This document shows, piece after piece, positions 309-17,608 of a stretch of DNA of 33,054 nucleotides (within the stretch, counting starts at the first letter, position 1; every line of letters starts with the position of its first letter). The position numbers and the translations under genes were made by a program. The notes below the pieces were generated by a model that was not told the origin of the DNA, did not search any database, and saw only the letters and a list, made by a program, of their open reading frames with translations. The stretch comes from a virus: IMG/VR virus record IMGVR_UViG_3300035122_000028, positions 1-33,054 of that record. One strand, written 5' to 3'.

Positions 309-1025
309 ATGGTTGTAGACACGGTTCTCCCTGACGATAAATGGGCGTTCGATGAAGATGTAACCGCCGCATTTGATGATATGCTGGCACGCAGTATCCC
401 CCAATACACCGTGATGCGTGAGGCGGTCTACCACCTCGCCTGCCGGTACATTCAACCGCATACGGCGGTGGTCGATCTGGGCAGCAGTCGCGGGGAAGCG
501 GTAGCCAAGTTGGTAAGTCGATACGCGATGGTCAACCGCTTTCATTTGACTGACGTGTCGGAACCGATGTTGGTCGCGCTGCAAGAACGCTTTGCCCATG
601 ATATTACCATGAACACGGTGCGCGTCCAGGCGTGCGATTTGCGTAGCGATTTCCCTTTGTGCGAACCGTCGGTCGTCTTGTGTGTGCTGACTCTGCAATT
701 TACCCCGATGGAATACCGGCAGCAGATCGTGCAGACGATCTACGATAAGCTGCTTCCCGGCGGTGCATTGCTTTTGGTGGAAAAGGTATTGGGGGCAACG
801 GCCCCGATCAATCAGGTGATGGTCGATCTCTATTACGGTATGAAACGCGACAATGGGTATAGCGAAGAGCAAATCCAACGCAAGCGGATGTCCCTGGAAG
901 GGGTGCTGGTGCCGGTGACGGCCCGGTGGAACGAAGAGTTATTGCAGTCGGCGGGATTCCGGCAGGTGGATATGTTCTGGCGCTGGATGAATTTCTGCGG
1001 CTGGTTGGCGGTGAAGGATGGCTAA
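309..1025 (+). CDS. CmoA-like class I SAM-dependent methyltransferase or carboxy-SAM synthase
   Basis: The 238-residue protein has a class I SAM fold: VVDLGSSRGEA (54-64) is the SAM-binding loop and LTDVSEPM (80-87) follows. The whole length lines up from memory with E. coli CmoA, which makes carboxy-SAM from SAM and prephenate for wobble uridine modification. Shared blocks are W-x-FDE-x-V (12-18), RSIPQY (28-33), TLQF (128-131), GGAL plus EK (151-159), KRDNGYSEEQI (179-189) and the C-terminal AGF and NF. R193 in QRKRMSLE aligns with E. coli Arg199, which I recall as the carboxylate-binding residue. No CmoB partner is visible in the window. It overlaps the small terminase gene by 8 bases and so belongs to the packaging operon. 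A generic phage methyltransferase is the alternative. Confidence 0.75.
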   Translation: MVVDTVLPDDKWAFDEDVTAAFDDMLARSIPQYTVMREAVYHLACRYIQPHTAVVDLGSSRGEAVAKLVSRYAMVNRFHLTDVSEPMLVALQERFAHDITMNTVRVQACDLRSDFPLCEPSVVLCVLTLQFTPMEYRQQIVQTIYDKLLPGGALLLVEKVLGATAPINQVMVDLYYGMKRDNGYSEEQIQRKRMSLEGVLVPVTARWNEELLQSAGFRQVDMFWRWMNFCGWLAVKDG

Positions 1026-5510: not shown

Positions 5511-5990
5511 ATGGCTGCATGTGCTAATGAATACCCGACACGGATCGAGCGATCTGAACCCACCATCACCACTGAGGGGCAGAGTTATGCTGCCGGGGAT
5601 CAGGTGGGGAGTTTGTGTACATTTGACATTGTGACCGAGGCCGGGACCAAAGCCGGGGTGAAGCTGTCTGTAATCGGCGTATTGAATTCGACCGATACCC
5701 CTGCGCTGGACATCTGGTTTTTCGAACGGGAACCGACAACGGTATCGGCTGATGATGACCCGGCGTCGTTTAATGAAAGCGTGCTCTTCGATCATTTTCT
5801 GGGGCACGTTGAAGTGGCGGCTACCGATTGGTCCTCCGATGCCAACCACAGCGTCTTTACCAAATTGCAGGCCATGCCCATTCGCCATTTCCAGGAGGGG
5901 TTACCGGGGCGTATCTGGGCGGCGGTTATCGCCCGGTCTGCGTTTACGCCGGTTCGTATTGGTATTGGCATCGGCGTGACGGTGGATTGA
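5511..5990 (+). CDS. Probable virion structural protein, 159 aa
   Basis: The function is not known. The protein is soluble, beta-rich and without membrane segments. The pattern of a Thr/Gly lead-in (TTEGQSYAAGDQVG, 20-33), a hydrophobic strand, then DIWFFEREPT and a DDDPASFNES turn is familiar from hypothetical virion proteins coded next to phage head genes. A good ribosome binding site (AAGGAG) precedes the ATG. It lies between the protease and a lectin-like protein, in the place where head decoration proteins are often coded. Confidence 0.55.
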   Translation: MAACANEYPTRIERSEPTITTEGQSYAAGDQVGSLCTFDIVTEAGTKAGVKLSVIGVLNSTDTPALDIWFFEREPTTVSADDDPASFNESVLFDHFLGHVEVAATDWSSDANHSVFTKLQAMPIRHFQEGLPGRIWAAVIARSAFTPVRIGIGIGVTVD

Positions 5991-5991
5991 C

Positions 5992-6786
5992 ATGGCACGA
6001 CGATTTGGAACACGACGAGCGTTACTAGAAAGTCAGGCGGTATGGACACCGCGACAACTGAGTGGATTAACCGCCTGGTATGACAGTCAGGAAATCACAA
6101 CATTATTTCAGAACAGTGCCCTGACTACCCCGGCAGGTAATGGGGATGTCATTGGCGGGTGGGTCGATAAGAGTGGTAACGGCTATGCGGTAACACAAGG
6201 GACAACCGCCAACAAACCCACCATGACGGTCAACTCGATCAACGGTATTGCCGCACCCGTGTTCGACGGCGGGGATTACCTGACGAACGGGCCGTTGGGC
6301 GCGTTATTCAGCGGGAGCGATGTGCCGTTTACCGTTGCTGCTGTCTTTAAACAAAATTCCGTAGCAGCGTCCCAATATATGTGGGCGTTTGGAAATTCGG
6401 GAAACGATTTGCCTTTTCATGCTTCCCGGTTGTATCAAACCGGTAGTCTGAAATATATGTCGTACCGGAGCGATAACACCGGGGCCACCGCAACCCCATC
6501 AGGTGGGACGAATGATATCAGTCCTCATGTCGGTTATCTGGTATTTACAGGAACCACAGTGTCCATTGTTATTGATGGTACGGCAGTAGTCTCTGGGGCG
6601 GCGTCTGATGTGGGGGCACTAACTGTCAATCAATTTGCAATGGGTGGACTTTTGAGGACATCATTTAGTCTTGGGTTTAACGGCCCCATCGGCGAACTGG
6701 TGGTGATCAACCGCGCTATCACCAGCGTCGAAGCGGGGCAACTGAACCGCTATATGGGTAGCCAATGGGGGATCAGTGTCTCATGA
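5992..6786 (+). CDS. LamG/concanavalin A-like domain virion protein, probable head or tail appendage
   Basis: The 264-residue protein is one jelly-roll domain of the laminin G/concanavalin A type. The signs are GLTAWYDS at 25-32, GWVDKSGNG near 55, APVFDGGDYL near 88, then alternating beta strands, a VSIVIDG strand and a closing GPIGELVVINRAIT strand with a short C-terminal helix. Such domains bind carbohydrates and occur on phage head fibres and tail tips. The gene lies among head genes rather than tail genes, so a capsid-surface fibre is the more likely role. It begins one base after the previous stop and ends in an ATGA overlap with the next gene. Confidence 0.65.
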   Translation: MARRFGTRRALLESQAVWTPRQLSGLTAWYDSQEITTLFQNSALTTPAGNGDVIGGWVDKSGNGYAVTQGTTANKPTMTVNSINGIAAPVFDGGDYLTNGPLGALFSGSDVPFTVAAVFKQNSVAASQYMWAFGNSGNDLPFHASRLYQTGSLKYMSYRSDNTGATATPSGGTNDISPHVGYLVFTGTTVSIVIDGTAVVSGAASDVGALTVNQFAMGGLLRTSFSLGFNGPIGELVVINRAITSVEAGQLNRYMGSQWGISVS

Positions 6787-7202
6787 CCGAGTGGAAATGG
6801 CGGTTGTTCTTGTTTGTGCGCGCCGCCGATGCCACCGCCGAAAACAAACTGGCGTTCGGGCACATCTTCGCAGACAATACCAGCGGGGAGACGGTGGAGA
6901 ACGAGAGCCGATTGCTGGACGCGGTGGTGCGTTTGAGCACGTCGGGGGAAGCGCCTGCACAGGTGTTCGGAATTAATACGGCGGTGAAGGCAGACATGCG
7001 GACGGCGCTGCAAGCGTTTCTGGATACCCTGAGCCAATCGCGCTATTACGGTGTGGCGAACATAACTCTCCCCAATTATGGGATGGGCGATTTACTCAAG
7101 GCAAACGGGGGAAGTGGTGTCATCGGAGAACCGTTCACCTGGCAGGACGCGCTGGACGATCTGTATAACGAACGGGGCTTGCAAGTGATTGTCACCGAGT
7201 AA
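6783..7202 (+). CDS. Small structural protein of unknown function, 139 aa
   Basis: The product is not recognised. It is a soluble, mixed alpha/beta protein with no membrane segment. The chosen ATG at 6783 forms an ATGA overlap with the lectin-like gene. A start 18 bases upstream exists but lacks support. The ORF is followed directly by an intrinsic terminator (7211-7231), so it closes the first transcription segment. Its position between head accessory genes and scaffold suggests a head role. Confidence 0.6.
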   Translation: MTEWKWRLFLFVRAADATAENKLAFGHIFADNTSGETVENESRLLDAVVRLSTSGEAPAQVFGINTAVKADMRTALQAFLDTLSQSRYYGVANITLPNYGMGDLLKANGGSGVIGEPFTWQDALDDLYNERGLQVIVTE

Positions 7203-7210
7203 GGAAATAC

Positions 7211-7231
7211 CAACGCTCCGGCGTTGTTTTT
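7211..7231 (+). terminator. Intrinsic terminator between head accessory genes and scaffold/capsid genes
   Basis: CAACGC (7211-7216) pairs exactly with GCGTTG (7221-7226) around a TCCG loop, followed by five T residues at 7227-7231. It lies right after the stop at 7202 and before the scaffold start at 7261. No obvious -35/-10 pair was found between it and the scaffold gene, so readthrough is probably partial. Confidence 0.75.
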
Positions 7232-7260
7232 CATTGTACGGACAGAGTAGGAGTAACCCT

Positions 7261-8013
7261 ATGACAGTAGCAGCAAAGGAAGGCCAGCGCCGGAATTGGT
7301 TAGAACGTCATTTCGGTAAGGCCAAAGAAAATGAAGTGGATGAGAAACTGACCGATCTGGGCAAGTTTCTCGATAGCCTGGGGTTGAATCGAAAGGAACA
7401 GAACGCCTTTCAACAGGCCCTCTATACGAAGGGGGTGTTGGAAGACGCCCAACTGAAAATCGCCGCCGATCTGGAGCAATTCATCGAAGACGACGCGGTA
7501 CGAATGCAGGCCGCTGCGGGGGCGATTGCCCATGTGGTAGGCGCGGGATTGGAAGGAATGGACACCGGAGCGGTAGAAGAGCCTGCCGTTGAAGCGCCGA
7601 TGGAAGGCGAAGAAGTGATGGAAGACATCATGCAGGAAGACGGGGCAGGCGATGGCGAAGAAGACGATGAAGAGGAATTCCCGAAAGAACTCATCTTCAC
7701 GATGGCCCGCGAAACCACTGCCGCTGCAAAGGCAATGGGTCAAATGGCACCGTCCATTGTGGAACTTGCCCAATTCGCCAAAGCCGCCGCGCCCCTGATC
7801 GATCAGGCGCAGATGGTCCCTGATCTACAAGTGCGTATCAAAGAACTGGAAACGGCCTTGCAAACCGCAAAAGAGATGACACCGCGTGTCGCCTCGCGAG
7901 ATGTAAGTACCGAGTTGAATCGGGACGATCCCCAAACCAAAACCCTGGCCGATAAAGCCAAAAAGGGTACCGAGGGCACCAAGATCGTTGCCGGTATTCG
8001 AGTGAAAGAATAG
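7261..8013 (+). CDS. Probable capsid scaffolding protein
   Basis: Scaffolds guide capsid assembly and are removed before DNA fills the head. The 250-residue product is highly charged, has no cysteine, and is predicted by eye to be largely helical. An amphipathic N-terminal region comes first, then an extreme acidic patch (116-139), then a coiled-coil-like stretch (165-206, including LQVRIKELETALQTAK) and a basic C-terminal end (225-250), which in other scaffolds binds the capsid protein. It sits directly upstream of the major capsid gene and downstream of the protease. The start at 7261 follows GGAG; an upstream in-frame start at 7189 would run through the terminator hairpin. Confidence 0.7.
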   Translation: MTVAAKEGQRRNWLERHFGKAKENEVDEKLTDLGKFLDSLGLNRKEQNAFQQALYTKGVLEDAQLKIAADLEQFIEDDAVRMQAAAGAIAHVVGAGLEGMDTGAVEEPAVEAPMEGEEVMEDIMQEDGAGDGEEDDEEEFPKELIFTMARETTAAAKAMGQMAPSIVELAQFAKAAAPLIDQAQMVPDLQVRIKELETALQTAKEMTPRVASRDVSTELNRDDPQTKTLADKAKKGTEGTKIVAGIRVKE

Positions 8014-8023
8014 GAGCGATCTC

Positions 8024-9460
8024 ATGACAGCAGAACAAATGGTAGTCACGAAGGATGTCCTTGAAGAAATGATGGGGGCATACATCGAAAAGCATACCCC
8101 GGCAAGTACCACTTTAACTGGACGGCCTTTGCATGGCCCATCCGATACCACCTTTCGCGGTCCCAACAACTACGGGATTTTCAGTTATCCCGGTGTGCGC
8201 CCGCAGCGGTTCACGACGTTGGTGCGACCCAATTCGTTGGCGTCGCTTCTGGCGCAGAACATCCAGAAGTCGAACTACACCGAGGAAATTCTGGAAGTGA
8301 TGACCGGCGTGACGGCGGCGGCGGGCACCAACTCGACCTCCTGGTGTGGCACACCTCCGACGGTAGGCGAAGCGAAAGTCTGCCAGCAGATTTACAAGTT
8401 CGGGAATTATCACGTGCGCTCCCATCTCAATGCCATTCCTGAAAAGGGGCAGTTGCGCAATCGTGCCGAAGTCCCGGCGGAAATCTACAATCTGGGGACG
8501 GAGGCCAACCCGCTAATCCCTGATCTGTTGTTCAGAATGGCCGATCCACTGGATGCAATGGCCTATGAGTTTTTCCTGGTAGGCGTGCAGGCGGAACGGG
8601 TGCTGGATGAAGTGCTAATTCAGGGGCTGGCAAGCAATGCGGCCAATAACATTCACGGTTGGTCGCTGGAATTTGACGGCATTGATCGTCAGATTCGCAC
8701 CGGCTACACCGACCGGTTGACCTCCACCACCTGCCCGGCGATGGATTCCATTGTGGAAACCTTCAGCGCCGCCGTTGGCGGAACCAATGCCCTGAGCGAA
8801 AACATGGTGCATGTGTTGAGTAAGGTGTTCCGAGGGCTGAAGAACCGAGCGCGCAAAATGCAGATGCAAGGGACCTCCTGGGCCATCGTGATGCGTGAAG
8901 AGTTGTTCTTTGCGCTGGTGGATGCCTATAGTTGCCTCTACCATCGGTACAAATGCTCTGGTTCCCAGTACGAAGAAAACAATATCGATCAGGTGACCAC
9001 GAATCAATTGCGTCTGGCGATGTTGGAAGGGGAGTACCTGCTGATTGACGGGATGCAAATTCCGGTTGTTTTCAGTGAAGGTATTGAGCAGAGCACAGTG
9101 GCGTCCAATACCTTCCAAAGTGACCTGTACGTGTTGCCGTTGAGTTGGATGGGCATTCCGCTGTCCCGGCTCGAATACTTCCCGATGGATAACCAGTACA
9201 TCCAGGCGTTTAACGATTACGCAATGGATAGCCCGGTGGCTATCAATAATGGGTTGTGGTTGGTCGGACATGCCAGCACACCGCTGTGCCGTGAATATCA
9301 CTTCGCGTCCAAGATGCGCTTTATCCTGGAGACACCTTTCCTGGCGGCGCGTGTGGACAATATCCAGTACAGCTTCAATGCCGAAATCCGCAACGCCATT
9401 CCGGATGCTTCCTACTACAAAGATGGTGGTGTGAGCCGACGGATTCTACCCGCTGGATAG
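8024..9460 (+). CDS. Major capsid protein
   Basis: This is the shell subunit. The 478-residue product is the largest head gene after the portal and lies in the canonical place behind protease and scaffold, with a good ribosome binding site (TAGGAG). The start is non-repetitive and possibly flexible (1-60), then comes a globular body with long helices and strands and no membrane segment or enzymatic motif. The HK97 fold is inferred from gene order, not from a motif I can point to. The gene is followed by a terminator/promoter region and then by sugar-modifying enzymes, so this protein is one possible glycosylation target. Confidence 0.85.
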   Translation: MTAEQMVVTKDVLEEMMGAYIEKHTPASTTLTGRPLHGPSDTTFRGPNNYGIFSYPGVRPQRFTTLVRPNSLASLLAQNIQKSNYTEEILEVMTGVTAAAGTNSTSWCGTPPTVGEAKVCQQIYKFGNYHVRSHLNAIPEKGQLRNRAEVPAEIYNLGTEANPLIPDLLFRMADPLDAMAYEFFLVGVQAERVLDEVLIQGLASNAANNIHGWSLEFDGIDRQIRTGYTDRLTSTTCPAMDSIVETFSAAVGGTNALSENMVHVLSKVFRGLKNRARKMQMQGTSWAIVMREELFFALVDAYSCLYHRYKCSGSQYEENNIDQVTTNQLRLAMLEGEYLLIDGMQIPVVFSEGIEQSTVASNTFQSDLYVLPLSWMGIPLSRLEYFPMDNQYIQAFNDYAMDSPVAINNGLWLVGHASTPLCREYHFASKMRFILETPFLAARVDNIQYSFNAEIRNAIPDASYYKDGGVSRRILPAG

Positions 9461-9470
9461 TTGAGAAGTA

Positions 9471-9500
9471 TTGACAGCGCATACATAAGTATGCTATCGT
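9471..9500 (+). promoter_or_regulatory. Promoter of the glycan-modification cassette
   Basis: A consensus -35 TTGACA (9471-9476) is followed, after 18 bases, by TATCGT (9495-9500) with the extended -10 triplet TGC (9492-9494). Within the spacer lies a perfect dyad, GCATAC (9479-9484), ATAA, GTATGC (9489-9494), which could be an operator. The start of transcription is expected near 9507, 10 bases after the capsid operon hairpin begins at 9503. It is the first promoter seen after the capsid gene and reads into the 19-codon leader ORF and the glycosyltransferases. Confidence 0.75.
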
Positions 9501-9502
9501 AT

Positions 9503-9531
9503 GGGGGAGGGTTAATAGCCCTTCCCCTTTT
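9503..9531 (+). terminator. Intrinsic terminator of the capsid transcript
   Basis: A nine-pair stem (9503-9511 with 9519-9527, one G-T wobble) is followed by TTTT at 9528-9531. It can end transcripts arriving from the capsid gene. The promoter just upstream should start RNA near 9507, inside the left arm, so its own transcripts would lack a full stem and escape termination. Confidence 0.7.
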
Positions 9532-9555: not shown

Positions 9556-9615
9556 ATGGATGATGACAAGCCCATTGATATGGTAAAAATTGAGAAACGG
9601 GATGTGGATGATTAA
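9556..9615 (+). CDS. Leader peptide, 19 aa, coupled to the first glycosyltransferase
   Basis: A strong ribosome binding site (AAGGAGG) lies five bases before an ATG that opens a 19-codon ORF with an Asp-rich start and end. Its TAA shares an A with the ATG of the glycosyltransferase at 9615 (TAATG). The glycosyltransferase has no other ribosome binding site, so the small ORF probably loads ribosomes for it. The peptide itself need not have a function. Confidence 0.6.
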   Translation: MDDDKPIDMVKIEKRDVDD

Positions 9616-10619
9616 TGCCGGACGTTACCGTCGTCATTCCCTGTGCCCCCTACCATGAGGATGTGGTGCACAGAGCCATACAAAGCGTGGAAGCGCAGAC
9701 GATTCCCTGTCATGTGGTTTGGGCGATAGATAAGCAGGGCGTCGGGCCTGGCGTCATTCGCAACCGGTTAATGGACTATGTGGAAACGCCCTACACTGTG
9801 TTTCTGGACGCCGATGATTGGCTGGACCCGTCGTTTGCGGAGGAGTGTGTACGGGTTATCCGACCAGGGCGGTATGTGTACACGGATTGGTATTACCCGG
9901 AAAACTACCGACACGCGCCCGAATTTCCCTACTGTTACCGGGCGTTTATGGAGCGTACGTGGCACATGATAACGGCGCTACTGTACACTGAAGATGTTCG
10001 ACAGGTGGGCGGATTTGACGAATCGTTAGCGGCATTGGAAGATACCGATTTCTGGCTGAAAATTACTCGCGAGATTGGCACCTGTGGAATCCATATCCGC
10101 AAGGCGTTGGCGTATTACGGCAAGGAAGGCCGCCGAGCACAAAAGGCGATTGACAACAATTACGAACGGGACTTATTAAACGAGATATTGGAAAGGTATA
10201 CCGGACCGATGCCATGTTGTGGGGAGTACCCAGAAGTGAACGATCATATTCCTATCGGTGAGCGGCAACCCAATGATGTGTTGGCGCGCCCACTGTGGCG
10301 GGGCAATAACCGCGTCAGGGGCGTGCATAGCGGGCGGATGTACCCGCGCATCTCCTGGCCCAAAACAACCTGGGTGGACCCGAAAGATATTGAACTGGCC
10401 CCAGCCCATTGGCAATGGGAAGCGGTGGACCAACCTGCTGTTGGCGACAATGGACAGTCCCAGGCATTGGATGTGTTTGACCAGTTCTTTCACAAACCGA
10501 TGGCTCCGACCGAACCGCTATCCGAGACACAGGTGACTATTCCCCCTACCCTACCGCCGGAATTTACCCCGGACGTAGAGACTATTGTGCGTATCGCCAG
10601 GAAGCGATTGAGCAGATGA
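9615..10619 (+). CDS. GT2-type glycosyltransferase with a C-terminal extension
   Basis: The enzyme transfers a sugar from a nucleotide-sugar donor. In 334 residues the first 200 form a GT-A domain: VTVVIPC (4-10), the DxD-type metal and donor site LDADDW (64-69), and the acceptor-side acidic motif LEDTDFW (141-147). The remaining 135 residues do not belong to a GT2 catalytic core. They start with a Cys pair at 201-202, contain GVHSGRMYP (237-244) and WVDPKDIEL (253-261), then a Pro-rich stretch. The middle of this part resembles a short SH3-like segment seen in phage structural proteins, which is only an impression. It opens the cassette and overlaps the next gene by ATGA. Confidence 0.8.
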   Translation: MPDVTVVIPCAPYHEDVVHRAIQSVEAQTIPCHVVWAIDKQGVGPGVIRNRLMDYVETPYTVFLDADDWLDPSFAEECVRVIRPGRYVYTDWYYPENYRHAPEFPYCYRAFMERTWHMITALLYTEDVRQVGGFDESLAALEDTDFWLKITREIGTCGIHIRKALAYYGKEGRRAQKAIDNNYERDLLNEILERYTGPMPCCGEYPEVNDHIPIGERQPNDVLARPLWRGNNRVRGVHSGRMYPRISWPKTTWVDPKDIELAPAHWQWEAVDQPAVGDNGQSQALDVFDQFFHKPMAPTEPLSETQVTIPPTLPPEFTPDVETIVRIARKRLSR

Positions 10620-11392
10620 CTAAGCCCATTTTCGCCCGCCCGCGTCATTGGTATGACAGTTATACCGACTTCTGGACGTTGGTCAATCTGTGCGGATATG
10701 AGTGGTGTTATCTGGACGATATGGATACCAAGAACCCTGACGCACTTTACATCTTTACCGGGCCGGAAGCCAAGCACGAATTCAAAGGGGCTAAAGCGCG
10801 GATCATTTACTGGCTCCTGGAATGGTATGGCGATTATGAGCAACGGGAAGGAATCGCGGAAACCTGGACCTCGAACCGCACCTATGCAGAGATGGTTGGC
10901 GCGAAATTCGTGCCAATGGGCGGCCATCCCGATCTGGGCAATCCCAAGCGCGGTGATGGTCGTTTCCATATTGCCCACATGAGTTATGCAGGCATTCACC
11001 GCCGGTCGTTGCTGCTGGGGAAAATCAAAGAAGCGGCCAACCGATGGGGGGAGTGGGACTTTGCCATCGCTCCCAATGCTTGGGGCGAGGACCGGGACTT
11101 CAATCTTCATAACAGTCGCATGATGATACACATTCACCAGAACGAAGCGTATCCGGCGATTGCACCGTTACGGGCGGTCCTGGCGGCGGCCTATGCATTG
11201 CCGTTGGTTGCAGAGAACGGCTGGAGTGCAGACCCGTACCAGGATCATTGTTATGTGTATGCCTATAAAGACATGCCGGAAGCGATTATGTCCATGTTGC
11301 AGAGTAAAAACTTAGATGCACAGGGACAGGCGTTGCATCAGCATGTGTGTCATGATCTTCGCTTCGATAAGGTTGTGGAGACAAATTTGTGA
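10616..11392 (+). CDS. Probable GT-B-type glycosyltransferase
   Basis: The 258-residue product resembles the Rossmann-like half of GT-B enzymes of the glycosyl-transferase group 1/CgeB kind. The C-terminal donor domain is suggested by a block with NSRMMIHIHQNE (163-174) followed by an Ala-rich APLRAVLAAAYALPLVAENG helix and strand, which is the usual place where the nucleotide sugar binds. The N-terminal part is shorter than in full GT-B proteins, so the protein may be minimal or only one half of the fold. The acceptor cannot be told. It overlaps both neighbours by four bases and starts with ATG within the upstream stop. Confidence 0.6.
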   Translation: MTKPIFARPRHWYDSYTDFWTLVNLCGYEWCYLDDMDTKNPDALYIFTGPEAKHEFKGAKARIIYWLLEWYGDYEQREGIAETWTSNRTYAEMVGAKFVPMGGHPDLGNPKRGDGRFHIAHMSYAGIHRRSLLLGKIKEAANRWGEWDFAIAPNAWGEDRDFNLHNSRMMIHIHQNEAYPAIAPLRAVLAAAYALPLVAENGWSADPYQDHCYVYAYKDMPEAIMSMLQSKNLDAQGQALHQHVCHDLRFDKVVETNL

Positions 11393-12024
11393 GCCAACCC
11401 TTATTCTTTCTCTGGATACCGAAGACGGGGGGCACATCGCTCCACCATGCGTTCCTGCGGTGGGGATTGACGCATTGCCACGTCCGGTATGCCGAGGCGA
11501 TGGACGGTGCTGCAATTGAGGGGTGTGATTACGTGGCCGGGCATTGGAGCGCTAAAGGGTTGGATATATTGGAGGGCTGGTTGTCGGTTACCCTCCTACG
11601 GAATCCTATCGACCGACTGGTCAGTCATTACAATTACTGCCACCAACACGGCGACGATGACCATCCCGACCATGCGGCGTTTGTCAAGCGGGTCGATTTT
11701 ATAGAGTGGGCGGCCAGTCCGTATTGTATCGACAATTTCCATACCCGCTATCTCTGCGACAAGGTGGTTGATAATCTGGATTGGGCGCTGAAGTCCCTGT
11801 CGCGTATCGATGTCGTTGGCATTCTCAATCACGTGCAATGGGGGATGGATTATGTAATGCGCACCGTGTCCAAACGGTTGCAACGGCTCCCGAACATGGT
11901 GGGTCATGATCGCAAATCGACCTATTATATTCTACCGTCTGAAATCAGTCCCAAACTGCACCAGGAGTTATGGGAGCGGAACCGAAAGGATCGCCAGTTG
12001 ATTGTGAAAGCATTGGAGCGATAA
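11389..12024 (+). CDS. PAPS-dependent sulfotransferase 1
   Basis: The enzyme is expected to move sulfate from PAPS to a hydroxyl or amino group, most likely on a sugar. The 211-residue protein has the P-loop-like 5'-phosphosulfate site IPKTGGTSLH (10-19) and the 3'-phosphate site LLRNPIDRLVSHY (69-81), in the order and spacing typical of the Sulfotransfer_2 carbohydrate family, with a GHW motif between them (51-53). No membrane anchor is seen, unlike many cellular Golgi relatives. The start is GTG, forming GTGA with the upstream stop, and the end forms TAATG with the next gene. Confidence 0.85.
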   Translation: MSQPLFFLWIPKTGGTSLHHAFLRWGLTHCHVRYAEAMDGAAIEGCDYVAGHWSAKGLDILEGWLSVTLLRNPIDRLVSHYNYCHQHGDDDHPDHAAFVKRVDFIEWAASPYCIDNFHTRYLCDKVVDNLDWALKSLSRIDVVGILNHVQWGMDYVMRTVSKRLQRLPNMVGHDRKSTYYILPSEISPKLHQELWERNRKDRQLIVKALER

Positions 12025-12326
12025 TGATGAAATCCTTTCCTGCCTTGCGTGGTCTGGTCTGGTTCTTTCGCCTATCGGCTATCCTCAGTGGCATTGGGGC
12101 GTTGCTAACGGCTTTTTCCTACCGCGATATTGTGTCTTATGCCTTTCTGGGGATTGTAGGGGTGCTCAGTTTCCTGACGTTGTGGGCTATGGGAGAGATT
12201 ATCGTCCTGATTCTGGACTGGCACCACCAGCAGGTGTTGAGTACCGAAGCGCAAATCCGTATGTATCAGACCACACGGGACAAGCCGATCATTAAACCCT
12301 TAAAACACGCGAGGAAATCAGGATGA
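12024..12326 (+). CDS. Small membrane protein with two transmembrane segments
   Basis: The 100-residue product has a short basic start, a hydrophobic segment near 11-31, a second from about 37 to 66 ending in the WHHQQ turn, and a charged C-terminal tail of about 35 residues. It is not an enzyme by any motif. Similar small proteins occur in many bacteria without known function. Within a glycan cassette it might anchor or recruit enzymes to the membrane. The ATG at 12024 forms TAATG with the sulfotransferase; the next codon is also ATG. Confidence 0.6.
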   Translation: MMKSFPALRGLVWFFRLSAILSGIGALLTAFSYRDIVSYAFLGIVGVLSFLTLWAMGEIIVLILDWHHQQVLSTEAQIRMYQTTRDKPIIKPLKHARKSG

Positions 12327-12361
12327 AAAATACAGTGGAGTACAAAGAGGAGGCGATATGA
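12323..12361 (+). CDS. Mini-cistron of 12 codons joining two genes
   Basis: ATG at 12323 overlaps the upstream stop (ATGA), and the ORF ends with a TGA that overlaps the ATG of the gene at 12358 (ATGA). The mini-ORF itself carries GAGGAGG, the ribosome binding site of the next gene. It probably keeps ribosomes running across the gap. It may have no product of its own. Confidence 0.4.
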   Translation: MKNTVEYKEEAI

Positions 12362-12654
12362 AAATATGGATTGTATTATGGGATCAAAATTATTGCCCTG
12401 TGAATGACAAATGGTGTCAGGGGGGTTTACTATCTGGTGTGTATCCCACGTGGTCTGATGCTAAAAAAAGCATAAGTGATGATATTGACCACCGATCATC
12501 AAACGGCGCAAAATTCAAACGGATGGAAGCAATCGAATTGGAATATAGTACAAATCCAAACTGGTTTATTTATGAGGTGGACGGCAACAGATATTATTCC
12601 TATGTGATTGTAGAATATACGTTGACATTTATTCCAGAGGCAACTTTCCCGTGA
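12358..12654 (+). CDS. Unknown small protein, 98 aa, AT-rich
   Basis: No family is recognised. The protein is rich in Trp, Tyr, Ile and Asn, has no membrane segment, and begins KIWIVLWDQNYCP, which suggests a small alpha/beta domain. A strong ribosome binding site (GAGGAGG) precedes it. By eye its coding sequence is clearly more AT-rich than both neighbours, so it may be a later insertion. It ends in a GTGA overlap with the following glycosyltransferase. Confidence 0.6.
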   Translation: MKIWIVLWDQNYCPVNDKWCQGGLLSGVYPTWSDAKKSISDDIDHRSSNGAKFKRMEAIELEYSTNPNWFIYEVDGNRYYSYVIVEYTLTFIPEATFP

Positions 12655-13388
12655 TCGCCGCTTACACCGCCCTTCATTATGGGTCCCCCTATCTGCAATC
12701 GGCCATGCGGTCGGTGATGCCCTGGGTCGATAAATACTATGTACTCTATAGCGGGGATGGCTCACACGGAACACGCGCCAATGGCCTCCACCTGCCCGCT
12801 ACCGATAGCCGTGAGAATCTCCAGTGGATTGCTTCGCAAGCGGCGGGGCGTAAACTGGTCTGGATTGATGGGGATTGGCATCAGGAGGGGCAGCAGCGTG
12901 AGAGTATTTACCAGTACGCGCGCAACATGGATATGATTTTAGTCGTCGATTACGATGAAATCTGGCCGGAAGCGACAGTTGAGCAGACCATCAAATGGGT
13001 CGATGGTACATCTAGTAAACAGTACCGGATACCAATGGTTCATTTTTGGCGTAGTTTCCGCCGGGCAGTATTGCACGATCCGGCGTTTCCAGTGCGGATA
13101 TTGAAGCCGTCTGGGACGGGCGAATGCACGTTGCAAACACGCCCGATTGCGCACATGGGGTATGCCATCCCGACATGGTTACTCGATTACAAAATGCACA
13201 TACACGGACACCGGGGGCAATGGCGCACTGATATTGATTGGCGGAAAGAGCGCTGGCTTGCCAATGCCAGTGAGGATTGCCACCCCGTCGGTAGTGACTA
13301 CTGGAATCCCGAACCGGTAGAGCCGTTTGATTACCTGCCTTATTGGATGGCGCAGCACAAATATTATCACGAAGAGGTGATTGAATGA
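12651..13388 (+). CDS. GT-A-type glycosyltransferase, DxD family
   Basis: The 245-residue protein begins with a strand and helix typical of GT-A enzymes of the GT2/GT92-like kind (ALHYGSPYLQSAMRSVM, 7-23; YYVLYSGDGS, 29-38). The metal-binding motif is VVDYDEIWP at 98-106, with D100 and D102. An intact GT-A core of about 200 residues is followed by a His- and Trp-rich C-terminal segment. Donor and acceptor are unknown. The start is GTG in a GTGA overlap; the next sulfotransferase starts at ATGA. It is distinct from the GT2 protein at 9615. Confidence 0.7.
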   Translation: MIAAYTALHYGSPYLQSAMRSVMPWVDKYYVLYSGDGSHGTRANGLHLPATDSRENLQWIASQAAGRKLVWIDGDWHQEGQQRESIYQYARNMDMILVVDYDEIWPEATVEQTIKWVDGTSSKQYRIPMVHFWRSFRRAVLHDPAFPVRILKPSGTGECTLQTRPIAHMGYAIPTWLLDYKMHIHGHRGQWRTDIDWRKERWLANASEDCHPVGSDYWNPEPVEPFDYLPYWMAQHKYYHEEVIE

Positions 13389-14116
13389 CTCAACAGGTGA
13401 TTACCGTCGGACGTGGGCACAGTGGTACACGGGTCATGATGCACACATTGGAGGGGAGCGGATTTTTCGTTGGTAAAACCAACGGAAGCGGCGACCATCT
13501 CCCCCCACACCCGATGTATCGGGCCGTTCGTCGCTTTGGCCGGTTGGTGAAGGGGGAGCCGGGCGCATGGGATTTTACCGAACCGCTCAACACCCCCTAC
13601 CCTATCGAGTATTTAGCAGATGTGCAGGACTATTTAAGCGAATTAGTGGGACATGAGGCCATTGCCTGGAAATTACCGGAAGCGACGTTGGCACTGCCCT
13701 GGTTGGTCCAGGTGTTTCCCGATGCCTATTACATACATTGGGTCCGGGATGGCCGTGATAACATCCTGCGCTGGCACGGCACCGAGAATGACTGGTACGG
13801 TGTAGACGTGGGGGAATTACCCGAAGATCGACGGATGAAGGCGGCCATGAGTTGGGATTATCATGAAGAGTTGATTGCCCAGACTCCTAAACCAGAGCAT
13901 TGGTTGAAAGTACGCTTTGAAGATTTTATTTTGCATCAGGAAGAGGAATTGGAACGTTTGGAAGATTACCTGGATTGTCATTTGTGCCGCGAGTGGGTGA
14001 ATGCTCGCGTCGTGGGGCGTTATCGGTCGTTAGATATGTCCAAGTATCTGCCTGTATTGGAAAGGCATCTGGAGGCGCATGGGTACATCTCTGCAAACGA
14101 AACCCTCCACTCTTGA
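13385..14116 (+). CDS. PAPS-dependent sulfotransferase 2
   Basis: A second, unlike sulfotransferase of 243 residues. The 5'-phosphosulfate site is VGRGHSGTRVM (8-18), the form seen in Sulfotransfer_3-like proteins, and the 3'-phosphate site is HWVRDGRDNILRW (118-130). Between them lies AWKLPEATLALPWL (94-107), a common middle block. It shares no clear sequence with the sulfotransferase at 11389, so the two are not a recent duplication and may sulfate different positions or acceptors. The gene starts in an ATGA overlap. Its last 38 bases overlap the following methyltransferase. Confidence 0.75.
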   Translation: MTQQVITVGRGHSGTRVMMHTLEGSGFFVGKTNGSGDHLPPHPMYRAVRRFGRLVKGEPGAWDFTEPLNTPYPIEYLADVQDYLSELVGHEAIAWKLPEATLALPWLVQVFPDAYYIHWVRDGRDNILRWHGTENDWYGVDVGELPEDRRMKAAMSWDYHEELIAQTPKPEHWLKVRFEDFILHQEEELERLEDYLDCHLCREWVNARVVGRYRSLDMSKYLPVLERHLEAHGYISANETLHS

Positions 14117-14744
14117 CGAGTGTCTAACAACCATAGCCCGATACTTGGGAGTCAGTGAAGGCGAATTGATACGCTATGCCGCCGAAGATACCTTGCTTGG
14201 TGGTATCGAGGGCAATCCTATGGGCACGTCGTATGCAGTGGACGGGCACTTGCTGTATGCATTGGTCCGCTATTGTCGCCCGGAACGGATACTGGAATTC
14301 GGCACCGATCATGGGGGGAGCGCCAAACACATGGCCGCCGCTTGCCAGCGCAATGGCAAAGGACACGTCTGGACGGTGGATATCAACGTCCATGCCGGGG
14401 ACGGGTTAACCATAGCCGACCGGCGCTGGATTACCCAGGTGACGGCAGATGCCGCGTTGTGGGTGCGGGCCTATCGCGGAGAAGTTTTCGATTTCATCTT
14501 CGAGGATGCCAGCCATAGCGAATTCTTGTGTCATGTGATCTACAACCATTTACCGTATCTGCTCAAACCGGGAGGCCTTATTCTCTCGCACGATGTCAAC
14601 ATGGGTGTAGGAAAGGCCATTCTGAAAGGCATTCGTAAAGGCGGCGTACCGATGCACGAAGTAATTTATACTATCCCAGAACCGTCCCCGTTAGGGTTTT
14701 CGATCTACCAATACCAACCCGCCAGTTATGAGAGGCACACATGA
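14079..14744 (+). CDS. SAM-dependent methyltransferase 1 of a tandem pair
   Basis: The 221-residue protein is a class I methyltransferase of the Methyltransf_24 or cephalosporin-hydroxylase-like kind. An N-terminal helical part (11-45) is followed by the SAM loop ILEFGTDHGGS (71-81), the acidic strand end VWTVDIN (97-103), FDFIFEDASHS (137-147) and LKPGGLILSHD. Small-molecule or sugar O-methylation is the likely chemistry. The start lies inside the sulfotransferase gene, three bases after GGAGG. It resembles the next gene across nearly its whole length. Confidence 0.8.
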   Translation: MGTSLQTKPSTLDECLTTIARYLGVSEGELIRYAAEDTLLGGIEGNPMGTSYAVDGHLLYALVRYCRPERILEFGTDHGGSAKHMAAACQRNGKGHVWTVDINVHAGDGLTIADRRWITQVTADAALWVRAYRGEVFDFIFEDASHSEFLCHVIYNHLPYLLKPGGLILSHDVNMGVGKAILKGIRKGGVPMHEVIYTIPEPSPLGFSIYQYQPASYERHT

Positions 14745-15436
14745 GTTATCCCTATCCCACGCGTACACCACGTATCCCCCTGGAGGCCGCCTGTGAGCGC
14801 ATAGCGGCATTTTTTGACCTGGACGACCAAGAATTACACAACTACGCCTTACAGGACGACATTGGCGGCTATCATCATGACCCAGACCAACGGCGAATAA
14901 ACGACAACGGGGAACTTGCTAAAGGCATTTGGGGAGTTGAGGGACAGGTTATTTATGCACTGATCCGGCTACTCAACCCAAAGCACGTCTTGGAAGTGGG
15001 TAACTGTTGGGGGACCAGTAGTGTGCATATTGGTGAGGCAGTCTTACAGAATGGTACGGGAAAAGTGACAACGTTAGATTTGCCCGTTGAAGAGCGGAAG
15101 AGATCAAAGTTCAAAGTCCCCAAGCCGTATCAGGAAATCATGACCCCGGTGTATGAGGATTTGCGCGACTTCAATTACCGCAAGCGCCCACGCCTGGATT
15201 TTGTGTTTGAGGATAGTTCCCATACGGCGGAATTGGTTAGCCATGTCTGGCGTGAATTCCTAAAATGGGGAGCGCCAGGGGGATTTATCGTCTCGCACGA
15301 TAGTGAACATTTCCGCGTGGGTGAAGGGGTGCATGAGGGCATTCAGCAGGTGGTTGAGGTAGGCGATTATCTGTCGCTGGCGATTGCCCCGGCGGATTGT
15401 GGATTGGCAATCTGGAGGAAACCTGATGCTTCTTAG
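14741..15436 (+). CDS. SAM-dependent methyltransferase 2 of a tandem pair
   Basis: This 231-residue paralogue of the previous enzyme keeps the same order: an N-terminal helical part ending LHNYALQDDIGGY (32-44), the SAM loop VLEVGNCWGTSS (83-94), TTLDLP, then LDFVFEDSSHT and APGGFIVSHD. The acidic FEDxSH block is shared with its neighbour. The divergence is large, so the duplication is old or both were acquired. The two could methylate different hydroxyls of one sugar or work as a heterodimer. It starts at ATGA, and a GGAGG near its end serves the next gene. Confidence 0.8.
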   Translation: MSYPYPTRTPRIPLEAACERIAAFFDLDDQELHNYALQDDIGGYHHDPDQRRINDNGELAKGIWGVEGQVIYALIRLLNPKHVLEVGNCWGTSSVHIGEAVLQNGTGKVTTLDLPVEERKRSKFKVPKPYQEIMTPVYEDLRDFNYRKRPRLDFVFEDSSHTAELVSHVWREFLKWGAPGGFIVSHDSEHFRVGEGVHEGIQQVVEVGDYLSLAIAPADCGLAIWRKPDAS

Positions 15437-17150
15437 TATCGTTTCCGGCACGTACAATCGGTTTGAGATTCTCAAAAGCATGATGAATTCGGTTCGTCGC
15501 CAGATGTATCGCGGCATCGACTACGAGTTTGTCATTGTGGACGGGGGCAGTACCGATGGTACGCTCGATTGGTTACGGAACCAACCGGACGTTATCCTGA
15601 TCGAGCATGGGGAATTACGCGGTGCGATTCCGGCCTTTTGTGATGGGGCGCGGGCAGCGTCGGGGCACTATGTGATAATGGCAAACGATGATATTGTCTT
15701 TCACAACAACAGCATTTTAGCAGCCATTGCCCACTTGGAAGACACCCCGTCTTGTGGAGCGGTTGCCTTTGCCGATGATCGTTACCAACACGGAAACCAC
15801 CGGGTTATGGGGCATCCCACGCGCAACGCCGATGGCGAGAAAACCATTACCGCTTACGCACAGGTAGGAATGTTCCGCCGCTGGTTGGGGGAGCTTGCGG
15901 GCTGGTGGGGCGATCACGATGACTATATGAGTCAGGCACGTACTTACGGCGGGGATAATTTCCTGTCTTCGCGGATTTGGGAAATGGGCTACACCATTGA
16001 CGCGGTAAATGGTTGCACGATAGACGACGCCATTACCCTTGATGAAATGCGGCAGATCAACACCACTGGAGGGGATAACGACAGCCGCCTGTTTTATACC
16101 CGTTATCCAGACGGGGCGCTCTTTGGGGCTACACCGCCGGAGAATCCAGTTCCCCCCACCGAACGGTTGCGGATTTTGTACCTGCCGATTTACGAGGACC
16201 GGCATGAAGCGCAACGCGCCCAAAAGCGGGGGCTGCGCAATGCCCTAAGCAAATTGGGTGTGGTATTGGAATACGATTACGTCACCCGCGCCCGCAATCA
16301 GGTGAATGTGAATGCTGAATTGCCTCAGATTAACCGGGCATTTCAACCGCATGTGTTGTTCACTCAATTTCACGGGATTCAGGAAGTCAAGCGCCCGACC
16401 ATTGCCCAGATGCGGATGGACAATCCGGGAATGCTGGTATTGAATTGGAACGGCGATTACTGGCCGGAAGTGTACCAGCAACCGGACATGATTGACATGC
16501 TCCACTGGTACGACCTTGCTTTGTGTGTCAACCATCACATGGTAACCGACTATGAAACACGGGGTATTCCTGCGGCCTATTGGCAGGTGGCCTCGGAAGC
16601 GCCCGACACCTTCCCCGATATGCCCGCCTATGATGTGCTATTTATGGCGAATGCCTATGGTGCAGAACGGCAGCGGTTTGGTCCGGTGGTCAAGGGCTTG
16701 GAGACGTTGGGAATCACGGTAGGCATTTATGGGCGCGGTTGGCCTGCTGATTGGGAGGCGACGGAAACACTTTACGACTTTGCCACCTCCCATGCGCTGA
16801 TGCGGAATGCCAAAATCGTGATTGGCGATAACCAGCACAATGACGGGAGTGCCTTTGTGAGCAATCGGTTCTTTGAGACCTTGCACAGTGGCGCATTCCT
16901 GTTGCACCAGGAGATTGAAAACTTCGATACCCTGACCGGCTATGAAGCGGGCAAGCATTACGCGGTGTATCACGATGATAACGACTTGCGAACGCAGGTC
17001 CAGTATTACCTGAAATATGAGGATGAACGCCGTAAAATTGCCAAAGCGGGCAAATGGTACACGCGGCGCTGGCATTCGTTCGATGCACGGGTCAAACAGT
17101 TGTTTACCCAGATCATCCCTGAGAAAGTAGAGAGGCGAGAATATGCCTGA
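15426..17150 (+). CDS. Bifunctional glycosyltransferase: N-terminal GT-A joined to C-terminal GT-B
   Basis: The 574-residue protein has two different glycosyltransferase folds. Residues 1-230 are a GT2-like GT-A domain: LLSIVSGTYNRFE (2-14), FVIVDGGSTDGT (35-46) and the metal site MANDDI (85-90). From about 248 a GT-B domain begins with LRILYLPIYEDRH. It continues with a Rossmann half (to about 400) and a donor half with VLFMANAYG (404-412), then FVSNRFFETLHSGAFLL (477-493), the typical group-1/CgeB-like donor loop. Such fusions often add two consecutive sugars. The ATG at 15426 has GGAGG seven bases upstream; an earlier in-frame start at 15384 lies deep in the methyltransferase gene. Confidence 0.85.
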   Translation: MLLSIVSGTYNRFEILKSMMNSVRRQMYRGIDYEFVIVDGGSTDGTLDWLRNQPDVILIEHGELRGAIPAFCDGARAASGHYVIMANDDIVFHNNSILAAIAHLEDTPSCGAVAFADDRYQHGNHRVMGHPTRNADGEKTITAYAQVGMFRRWLGELAGWWGDHDDYMSQARTYGGDNFLSSRIWEMGYTIDAVNGCTIDDAITLDEMRQINTTGGDNDSRLFYTRYPDGALFGATPPENPVPPTERLRILYLPIYEDRHEAQRAQKRGLRNALSKLGVVLEYDYVTRARNQVNVNAELPQINRAFQPHVLFTQFHGIQEVKRPTIAQMRMDNPGMLVLNWNGDYWPEVYQQPDMIDMLHWYDLALCVNHHMVTDYETRGIPAAYWQVASEAPDTFPDMPAYDVLFMANAYGAERQRFGPVVKGLETLGITVGIYGRGWPADWEATETLYDFATSHALMRNAKIVIGDNQHNDGSAFVSNRFFETLHSGAFLLHQEIENFDTLTGYEAGKHYAVYHDDNDLRTQVQYYLKYEDERRKIAKAGKWYTRRWHSFDARVKQLFTQIIPEKVERREYA

Positions 17151-17340
17151 GAGATCCCACAAGGAAAAGACACCACTGACGGACCTGACGGATAAGCAAT
17201 TGGTTGATGTGATTCAGGATTTCCCTGCCCACAGCAAGGTGTCACACGAAGCCATGAAGCTGCTCATACGGCGAAGAGAATTGTATTTAACCAAACTAGA
17301 AGCATTGGAGAATAAACCAAGAGAATATGTCCCCGCTTGA
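17143..17340 (+). CDS. Small charged helical protein, 65 aa, unknown
   Basis: The product is rich in Lys, Arg and Glu, with a predicted helix-rich body (LTDKQLVDVIQDFP, then a helix with LLIRRRELYLTKLEALE). It has no recognised family. It overlaps the fused glycosyltransferase by eight bases and the following membrane protein gene by 14 bases, so it belongs to the same transcript. It marks the change from the glycan cassette back to virion structure genes. Confidence 0.55.
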   Translation: MPERSHKEKTPLTDLTDKQLVDVIQDFPAHSKVSHEAMKLLIRRRELYLTKLEALENKPREYVPA

Positions 17341-17608
17341 TTTGCTTCGTATTGCCCTTGCGACATGGTACATCAGTCACGCGGTAACCGCCCTGAGCGG
17401 CCCGTTGCGGCTTTTTACACGCTTGCGGGGGGTATCCCCCCTGTCCGGGCTTTTAAGCTGTATTTACTGCCTTTCCATTTGGGTTGCACTAGGATTGTAT
17501 ATCATCATGCAGCACGATTCCGGGCATTACCTGATCGACCCCTTTGCTGTGGCTGGCGCGGCGCTGATGTTGCGCAGTTATAGCGGTGCGGGGGTGTATG
17601 GCGACTGA
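17327..17608 (+). CDS. Small membrane protein, DUF1360-like
   Basis: The 93-residue product has three hydrophobic stretches, near 6-22, 42-62 and 70-84. The block LLSCIYCLSIWVA (43-55), with C45 and C48 followed by S and W, resembles the C-x2-C signature of DUF1360, a family of small membrane proteins found in phages and bacilli, of unknown function. The fit is by eye. The start is in frame with no overlap conflict, and its TGA forms TGATG with the next gene. Confidence 0.55.
   Translation: MSPLDLLRIALATWYISHAVTALSGPLRLFTRLRGVSPLSGLLSCIYCLSIWVALGLYIIMQHDSGHYLIDPFAVAGAALMLRSYSGAGVYGD

Follow-up and report, generated by a model that had tools for sequence, protein, structure and literature searches.

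A capsid-linked glycan cassette with two predicted sulfotransferases in an uncultured phage

The IMG/VR virus record IMGVR_UViG_3300035122_000028, an incomplete genome analyzed here over its whole length of 33,054 bases (the window), contains a glycan cassette at positions 9615-17150, which is encoded entirely on the + strand and lies directly behind the presumed capsid gene, ahead of the connector and tail genes. The cassette comprises genes of glycosyltransferases (GTs), methyltransferases and two predicted sulfotransferases, assigned to their families with differing degrees of certainty, and its place behind the capsid gene is conserved among related viruses. On balance, it appears probable that the cassette is responsible for glycosylation of the virion, with sulfation dependent on 3'-phosphoadenosine-5'-phosphosulfate (PAPS) added to it; the acceptor would most likely be a capsid or tail subunit. 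The capsid gene and the cassette enzymes are listed below (percentages for the methyltransferases refer to their orthologs in the related contig L001, IMGVR 3300009285_000011).

8024..9460, + strand: major capsid protein (478 aa), by synteny; the cassette follows it
9615..10619, + strand: GT2 (GT-A) glycosyltransferase; PF00535 Glycos_transf_2, 28.5 bits (cut-off 23.3)
10616..11392, + strand: GT-B-like glycosyltransferase, through its relatives; three of five aligned family members match Glyco_trans_1_2 (best E 3e-4)
11389..12024, + strand: predicted Sulfotransfer_2-kind sulfotransferase; PKTGGTS (5'-phosphosulfate-binding loop, 5'-PSB) and RNPIDRLVS (3'-phosphate-binding motif, 3'-PB)
12651..13388, + strand: probable GT-A glycosyltransferase with an invariant DYDEI, from a six-phage family alignment
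13385..14116, + strand: predicted Sulfotransfer_3-kind sulfotransferase; PF13469, 49.2 bits (cut-off 27); GRGHSGTR and WVRDGRDNILR
14079..14744, + strand: class I O-methyltransferase (Methyltransf_24); Pfam, 45 bits (cut-off 26.3); 50%
14741..15436, + strand: class I O-methyltransferase (Methyltransf_24); Pfam, 49 bits (cut-off 26.3); 49%
15426..17150, + strand: two-domain glycosyltransferase of 588 aa, GT2 followed by Glyco_trans_1_2; PF00535 (E 1e-18) and PF13524 (E 8e-19), 68 bits each

An initial annotation of this DNA, made from the letters alone, had described a one-strand array of genes with overlapping starts and stops that encode GTs, methyltransferases and two unlike sulfotransferases. 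The layout is as described: all the named genes are open frames on the + strand, and their stop/start overlaps are mostly of 4 bp, some being longer. The enzyme classes were borne out by Pfam and profile matches, more weakly so for 10616 and 12651, and the two predicted sulfotransferases indeed belong to different families.

Profiles for the sulfotransferases were built from bacterial Sulfotransfer_2 and Sulfotransfer_3 proteins, with 2000 shuffled sequences and 4184 unrelated phage open reading frames (ORFs) as controls. The 11389 protein scored 38 bits against the bacterial Sulfotransfer_2 profile, in an alignment that spans residues 5-199 and includes both PAPS motifs, compared with a best score of 8 bits for the shuffled sequences (n=2000) and 5 bits or less for the unrelated phage ORFs (n=4184). 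In this profile alignment, both the 5'-PSB lysine loop, PKTGGTS at residues 11-17, and the Arg...Ser pair of the 3'-PB are present, and the protein also matches PHROG 3347, galactose-3-O-sulfotransferase (E 3e-5). We therefore predict with good confidence that 11389 is a sulfotransferase. The 13385 protein, which passes the Pfam cut-off for Sulfotransfer_3, scored 39.5 bits against the corresponding bacterial profile and is probably a sulfotransferase as well. A sequence search of the PDB yielded nothing useful for 11389 and, for 13385, weak matches to protein-tyrosine sulfotransferases (E 0.6-0.8) amid antibody matches. No near copies of either protein were found in IMG/VR or among GenBank phages, the IMG/VR scans being insensitive as they required exact short peptides.

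Among the GTs, the assignments of 9615 and of the large two-domain protein are direct, whereas those of 10616 and 12651 are weaker because the GT matches come only through relatives; the two proteins themselves have no Pfam match. One of the six members of the 12651 family matches PF00535 Glycos_transf_2 (E 0.005), and relatives of this protein are present in 18 viral contigs. In the PDB, the 10616 family matched protein A over about 38 positions, which was taken as chance. The frame of the large GT opens with a TTG at 15384, and its ATG, which the initial annotation gave as the start, is at 15426. For the methyltransferases, the nearest PDB structures to the family profile are O-methyltransferases (E 5e-12).

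The placement of the cassette behind the capsid gene, proposed by the initial annotation, recurs in related viruses: 12 other IMG/VR contigs carry the cassette backbone downstream of a capsid homolog. A search with the capsid protein identified L001, where the cassette likewise follows the capsid gene; searches with the large GT and 12651 identified L006, L007 and L009-L012, and later L160, L161, L163, L165 and L166, each with a capsid homolog upstream. The capsid orthologs are 54% identical to the window protein in L001, 41% in L006 and 32% in L007, and those of the large GT about 57%, 46% and 38%, respectively; orthologs of the GT2 gene 9615 also lie behind the capsid gene in these three contigs. 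Because the association was found from both search directions, with the capsid query and with the GT queries, it argues that the position behind the capsid gene is a property of the phage lineage. This position appears to have been kept for a long time, since capsid identity falls as low as about 21%, with 21-24% for the most distant capsid homologs upstream of a cassette.

The recurring backbone consists of a GT2 or other GT-A enzyme, a 10616-like and a 12651-like protein, often the large GT, methyltransferases, and a DUF1360 protein; the more distant contigs additionally contain an RmlD-like or epimerase gene. In some relatives, other ORFs, a DNA methylase-like ORF or clustered regularly interspaced short palindromic repeat (CRISPR)-like arrays separate the capsid gene and the cassette. 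A portal search of 84,980 genomes returned one match (28% identical), in a metagenome-assembled genome contig filed as Desulfuromonadales (L013), where a sugar-nucleotide epimerase gene and then an unclassified ORF follow the capsid gene before the contig ends, a partial parallel. Two further features were observed behind the capsid gene of other relatives. The 103-kb phage contig of L012 carries, at 5573-7525, two short CRISPR-like arrays between the capsid gene and the glycan cassette (repeat CGGTCCACCCCCACGCTTGTGGGGAAAAC, period of about 61 bases), and GIY-YIG-like homing endonuclease ORFs, recognized by reading the sequence, lie directly behind the capsid gene in L009 (7850-9989) and L012 (2024-2971).

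The initial annotation had proposed comparing related contigs for the same gene set at the same place. This comparison recovered the backbone in the 12 contigs and sulfotransferases in none of the sequence searched: the Pfam Sulfotransfer models had no match in the whole contigs of L001, L006, L007 and L009-L012, and the custom profiles had none in the sequence stretches of L158-L170. Relative to L001, the window has the block 11389-12654 inserted between the orthologs of 10616 and 12651, and 13385 between those of 12651 and 14079. Sulfation thus looks like an add-on of the lineage of the window phage, which two separate insertions would explain; gain of the sulfotransferases is favored because it is simpler than repeated loss. 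The L001 cassette, for its part, contains a third Methyltransf_24 gene and a gene of the carboxy-S-adenosylmethionine (carboxy-SAM) synthase CmoA.

We infer the following order of events. The cassette would be transcribed late, alongside the head genes. The soluble GTs would use host nucleotide sugars to assemble a short glycan on a cytoplasmic acceptor, which would be a virion protein; the two methyltransferases would cap hydroxyls of the glycan with the use of SAM, and the two sulfotransferases would put on sulfate from host PAPS. The assembled virions would then bear a capped sugar coat with a negative charge, and the adsorption, stability or recognition of the particles could change as a result. 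The position of the cassette, its conservation and the absence of membrane-glycan machinery point to a virion protein as the likeliest acceptor. A cytoplasmic acceptor fits because the GTs, methyltransferases and sulfotransferases of the cassette lack strongly hydrophobic segments in hydropathy analysis, and neither a GtrA-like flippase nor a polymerase was seen among the cassette proteins with Pfam.

Several observations weigh against this scheme. The score of 11389 against PF03567 Sulfotransfer_2, 19.8 bits (E 9e-4), is below the Pfam cut-off of 22 bits. In 13385, both the Pfam and the custom profile match the C-terminal half only, His replaces the Arg that precedes SGT in the relatives (GRGHSGTR), and the 3'-PB retains the Arg, with the usual serine replaced by Arg; with these deviating motifs and partial coverage, the activity of this protein is uncertain. 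Single-sequence structure models of 11389 and 13385 reached a predicted local distance difference test (pLDDT) score of 38-39 and were discarded. The two proteins could instead be kinases, which the initial annotation had named as a refuting outcome, or other P-loop enzymes, with the glycan methylated and unsulfated; in favor of this, the P-loop of 13385 is degenerate, its 3'-PB serine is lacking, and modeling without relatives yielded no fold. The complete PAPS motifs of 11389 and its lengthwise alignment with bacterial sulfotransferases disfavor this explanation for that protein; for 13385, which is nevertheless above the Pfam Sulfotransfer_3 cut-off, the argument against it is weaker. Taken for both proteins, we regard it as quite unlikely.

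The acceptor may also lie elsewhere than on the virion. The enzymes could alter a glycan of the host surface during infection, resulting in a superinfection block or a receptor change, and this would agree with the weak match of the large GT to PHROG 841 (GtrB-like O-antigen conversion, E 1e-6), with the two hydrophobic proteins encoded close by, DUF1360 and ORF 11970, and with the large glycan gene set of cyanophage S-SRM01, which includes fucosyltransferases and has no virion gene within the stretch inspected. However, the cassette is embedded in the head-tail block in every relative whose capsid gene was seen, the enzymes have no membrane anchors, and the GtrA flippase and membrane-anchored GtrB that characterize Gtr-type serotype conversion have no counterparts in the cassette by Pfam and hydropathy, so that host-surface modification seems rather unlikely to be its role. 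Alternatively, the glycan could be attached to a modified base of the phage DNA, as a protection against restriction. DNA is among the known targets of phage GTs (Pyle et al. 2024, as cited in PMC12619734), and both the window and L001 carry CmoA, in L001 inside the cassette; in other phages, CmoA serves DNA carboxymethylation, feeding the formation of 5-carboxymethylcytosine together with CmoX (PMC12783734). Nonetheless, no C5 cytosine methyltransferase (PF00145, CmoX) was detected in the window, a partial genome, or in the contig of L001 (G001), a complete circle as judged from a 77-bp overlap of its end and start, and no base-making enzyme was found among ten early genes of G001 scanned with Pfam. 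DNA modification genes are, moreover, unusual in a late structural position, and DNA hypermodification is accordingly a doubtful explanation to which we assign a low probability. Finally, the cassette could be a moron, that is, horizontally acquired exopolysaccharide genes without a role in the virion, as might be suspected from the differences in gene content between relatives and from one AT-rich inserted ORF. This is highly improbable given that the backbone GTs and their place are conserved with the phage lineage across deep capsid divergence and that the GC content of the cassette, 53%, is the same as that of the genome, except in ORF 12358 (38%).

Virion glycosylation therefore remains the reading that we favor, and parts of it have precedents. 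In Corndog and other cluster O mycobacteriophages, gp35-gp38 comprise an O-methyltransferase, two GTs and a putative N-acetylglucosaminyltransferase encoded between the portal and protease genes, for which modification of the capsid with glycans and methyl groups has been proposed (PMC4351075). The window resembles Corndog in having GT and O-methyltransferase genes within the operon for virion structure, beside head genes; unlike the window cassette, the Corndog set consists of four genes, is located between portal and protease and includes no sulfotransferase. In tblastn searches of 50,697 phage records, 12651 had no match (E 1e-3) and the large GT matched five records (E 1e-5), none of them a mycobacteriophage, which counts against a shared origin with the known virion glycosylation genes; the parallel with Corndog is, for this reason, one of arrangement, not of descent. 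Glycans on the capsid and tail tube of mycobacteriophages have been demonstrated experimentally (Freeman et al. 2023, as cited in PMC12619734 and PMC11256854), and the citing passages mention no sulfate; for the window phage, by comparison, a virion glycan is predicted. Sulfotransfer_3 genes, the Pfam family to which 13385 belongs, have been reported in OM43 phages and in Synechococcus phage S-SRM01, with their function described by the authors as unclear (PMC10580990). In the S-SRM01 glycan gene cluster, we found no annotated sulfotransferase and no Sulfotransfer_3 match in the six ORFs scanned. The statement of the initial annotation that no described phage has this gene set thus holds for the combination, as two sulfotransferases together with a capsid-linked glycan cassette were not found in searches of open-licence papers; it does not hold for the components, namely the GT/O-methyltransferase operon, virion glycans (so far as the citing articles report them) and phage Sulfotransfer_3 genes, all of which are described in the sources cited above.

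Phage particles are usually regarded as bare protein. A conserved capsid-linked glycan cassette in deeply diverged uncultured phages suggests that virion glycosylation is more widespread than the mycobacteriophage examples. Sulfation, if true, would be a chemistry new to phage coats and would probably affect their charge, adsorption, matrix binding and recognition, and the cassette offers a possible role for phage sulfotransferases, the function of which has been stated to be unclear (PMC10580990). The recurring backbone with its exchangeable modifying enzymes provides for a testable comparison.

The remaining features of the window discussed here are as follows.

309..1025, + strand: CmoA-like carboxy-SAM synthase; TIGR00740, 161 bits, below the equivalog cut-off of 193; outside the cassette
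9471..9500, + strand: promoter-like TTGACA-18-TATCGT, matching the consensus at 10 of 12 bases; TGC precedes the second hexamer
9503..9527, + strand: hairpin GGGGGAGGG...CCCTTCCCC followed by TTTT, a 5' leader stem or terminator; -19.8 kcal/mol, z -3.0
9556..9615, + strand: putative 19-codon leader ORF, from the sequence; its stop and the first start of the cassette overlap (TAATG)
11970..12326, + strand: small hydrophobic ORF, putative gene of a probable membrane protein; hydropathy peak 2.16, no family match
12358..12654, + strand: AT-rich ORF; GC 38%, weak PHROG 3002 match
17327..17608, + strand: DUF1360 small membrane protein; PF07098, 22.6 bits (cut-off 21)

The CmoA of L001 (16507-17238) is the sole CmoA of G001 and overlaps methyltransferase genes on both sides. 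Arg199 of Escherichia coli CmoA binds the carboxylate (PMC3663124); R193 of the window protein aligns with this residue, which is also kept in L001. The CmoA of G001 may feed carboxymethyl transfer onto the glycan, a fair hypothesis because its CmoX partner is absent from G001. Like related contigs in which a CmoX-like gene precedes CmoA, the window has its CmoA ahead of the terminase genes; in contrast to the CmoA-CmoX-CmoY DNA carboxymethylation set of Synechococcus phage S-B43 (PMC12783734), neither the window nor G001 encodes CmoX, and the G001 CmoA lies among the cassette methyltransferases. A CmoX-like motif protein was observed upstream of CmoA in 18 of 80 IMG/VR loci (L014-L093; a motif scan of partly incomplete stretches), in several cases just before the large terminase gene. 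Inclusion of the window CmoA in the cassette was considered and not adopted, given the CmoX-CmoA-terminase order in other contigs and its location at the left edge of the contig, and the idea that the first 300 bases of the window are the end of a CmoX gene was rejected as they do not match CmoX-like ORFs. It is conceivable, if unlikely, that the lineage gives its virions anionic glycans by exchanging the enzymes that add charge while the backbone stays fixed, with sulfate in the window (two PAPS sulfotransferases) and carboxymethyl in G001 (CmoA inside the cassette); neither sulfated nor carboxymethylated phage virion glycans were found in the searchable literature.

From left to right, the window carries the CmoA-like gene, genes of the small and large terminase subunits, portal and head genes, the presumed capsid gene, the cassette, the DUF1360 gene, and genes of the connector, tail tube, tape measure and other tail proteins; for genes without a family match, the putative roles follow from gene order. 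The 8024..9460 protein has no Pfam or PHROG match and is presumed to be the capsid protein from its position after the terminase, portal and scaffold-like genes. Between this gene and the cassette, the promoter that the initial annotation placed at 9471 is recognizable as a pattern, and the hairpin begins 3 bases past it. A matching geometry was observed behind the capsid gene of L001 (11451-11515), with TTGACA-17-TATTGT at 11451 followed by a hairpin that is unrelated to that of the window, stronger (-30.5, z -7.9) and without a T run. That the two hairpins are unlike yet occupy the same place points to a leader stem where the transcript begins, or to an attenuator; the window hairpin equally fits a terminator because it precedes TTTT, and transcription of the cassette from 9471 is plausible.

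The initial annotation left unmentioned the two small ORFs at 11970-12326 and 12358-12654, the second of which is a probable recent import. The DUF1360 protein accompanies most capsid-linked glycan cassettes, being present in 10 related contigs, and may itself belong to the cassette.

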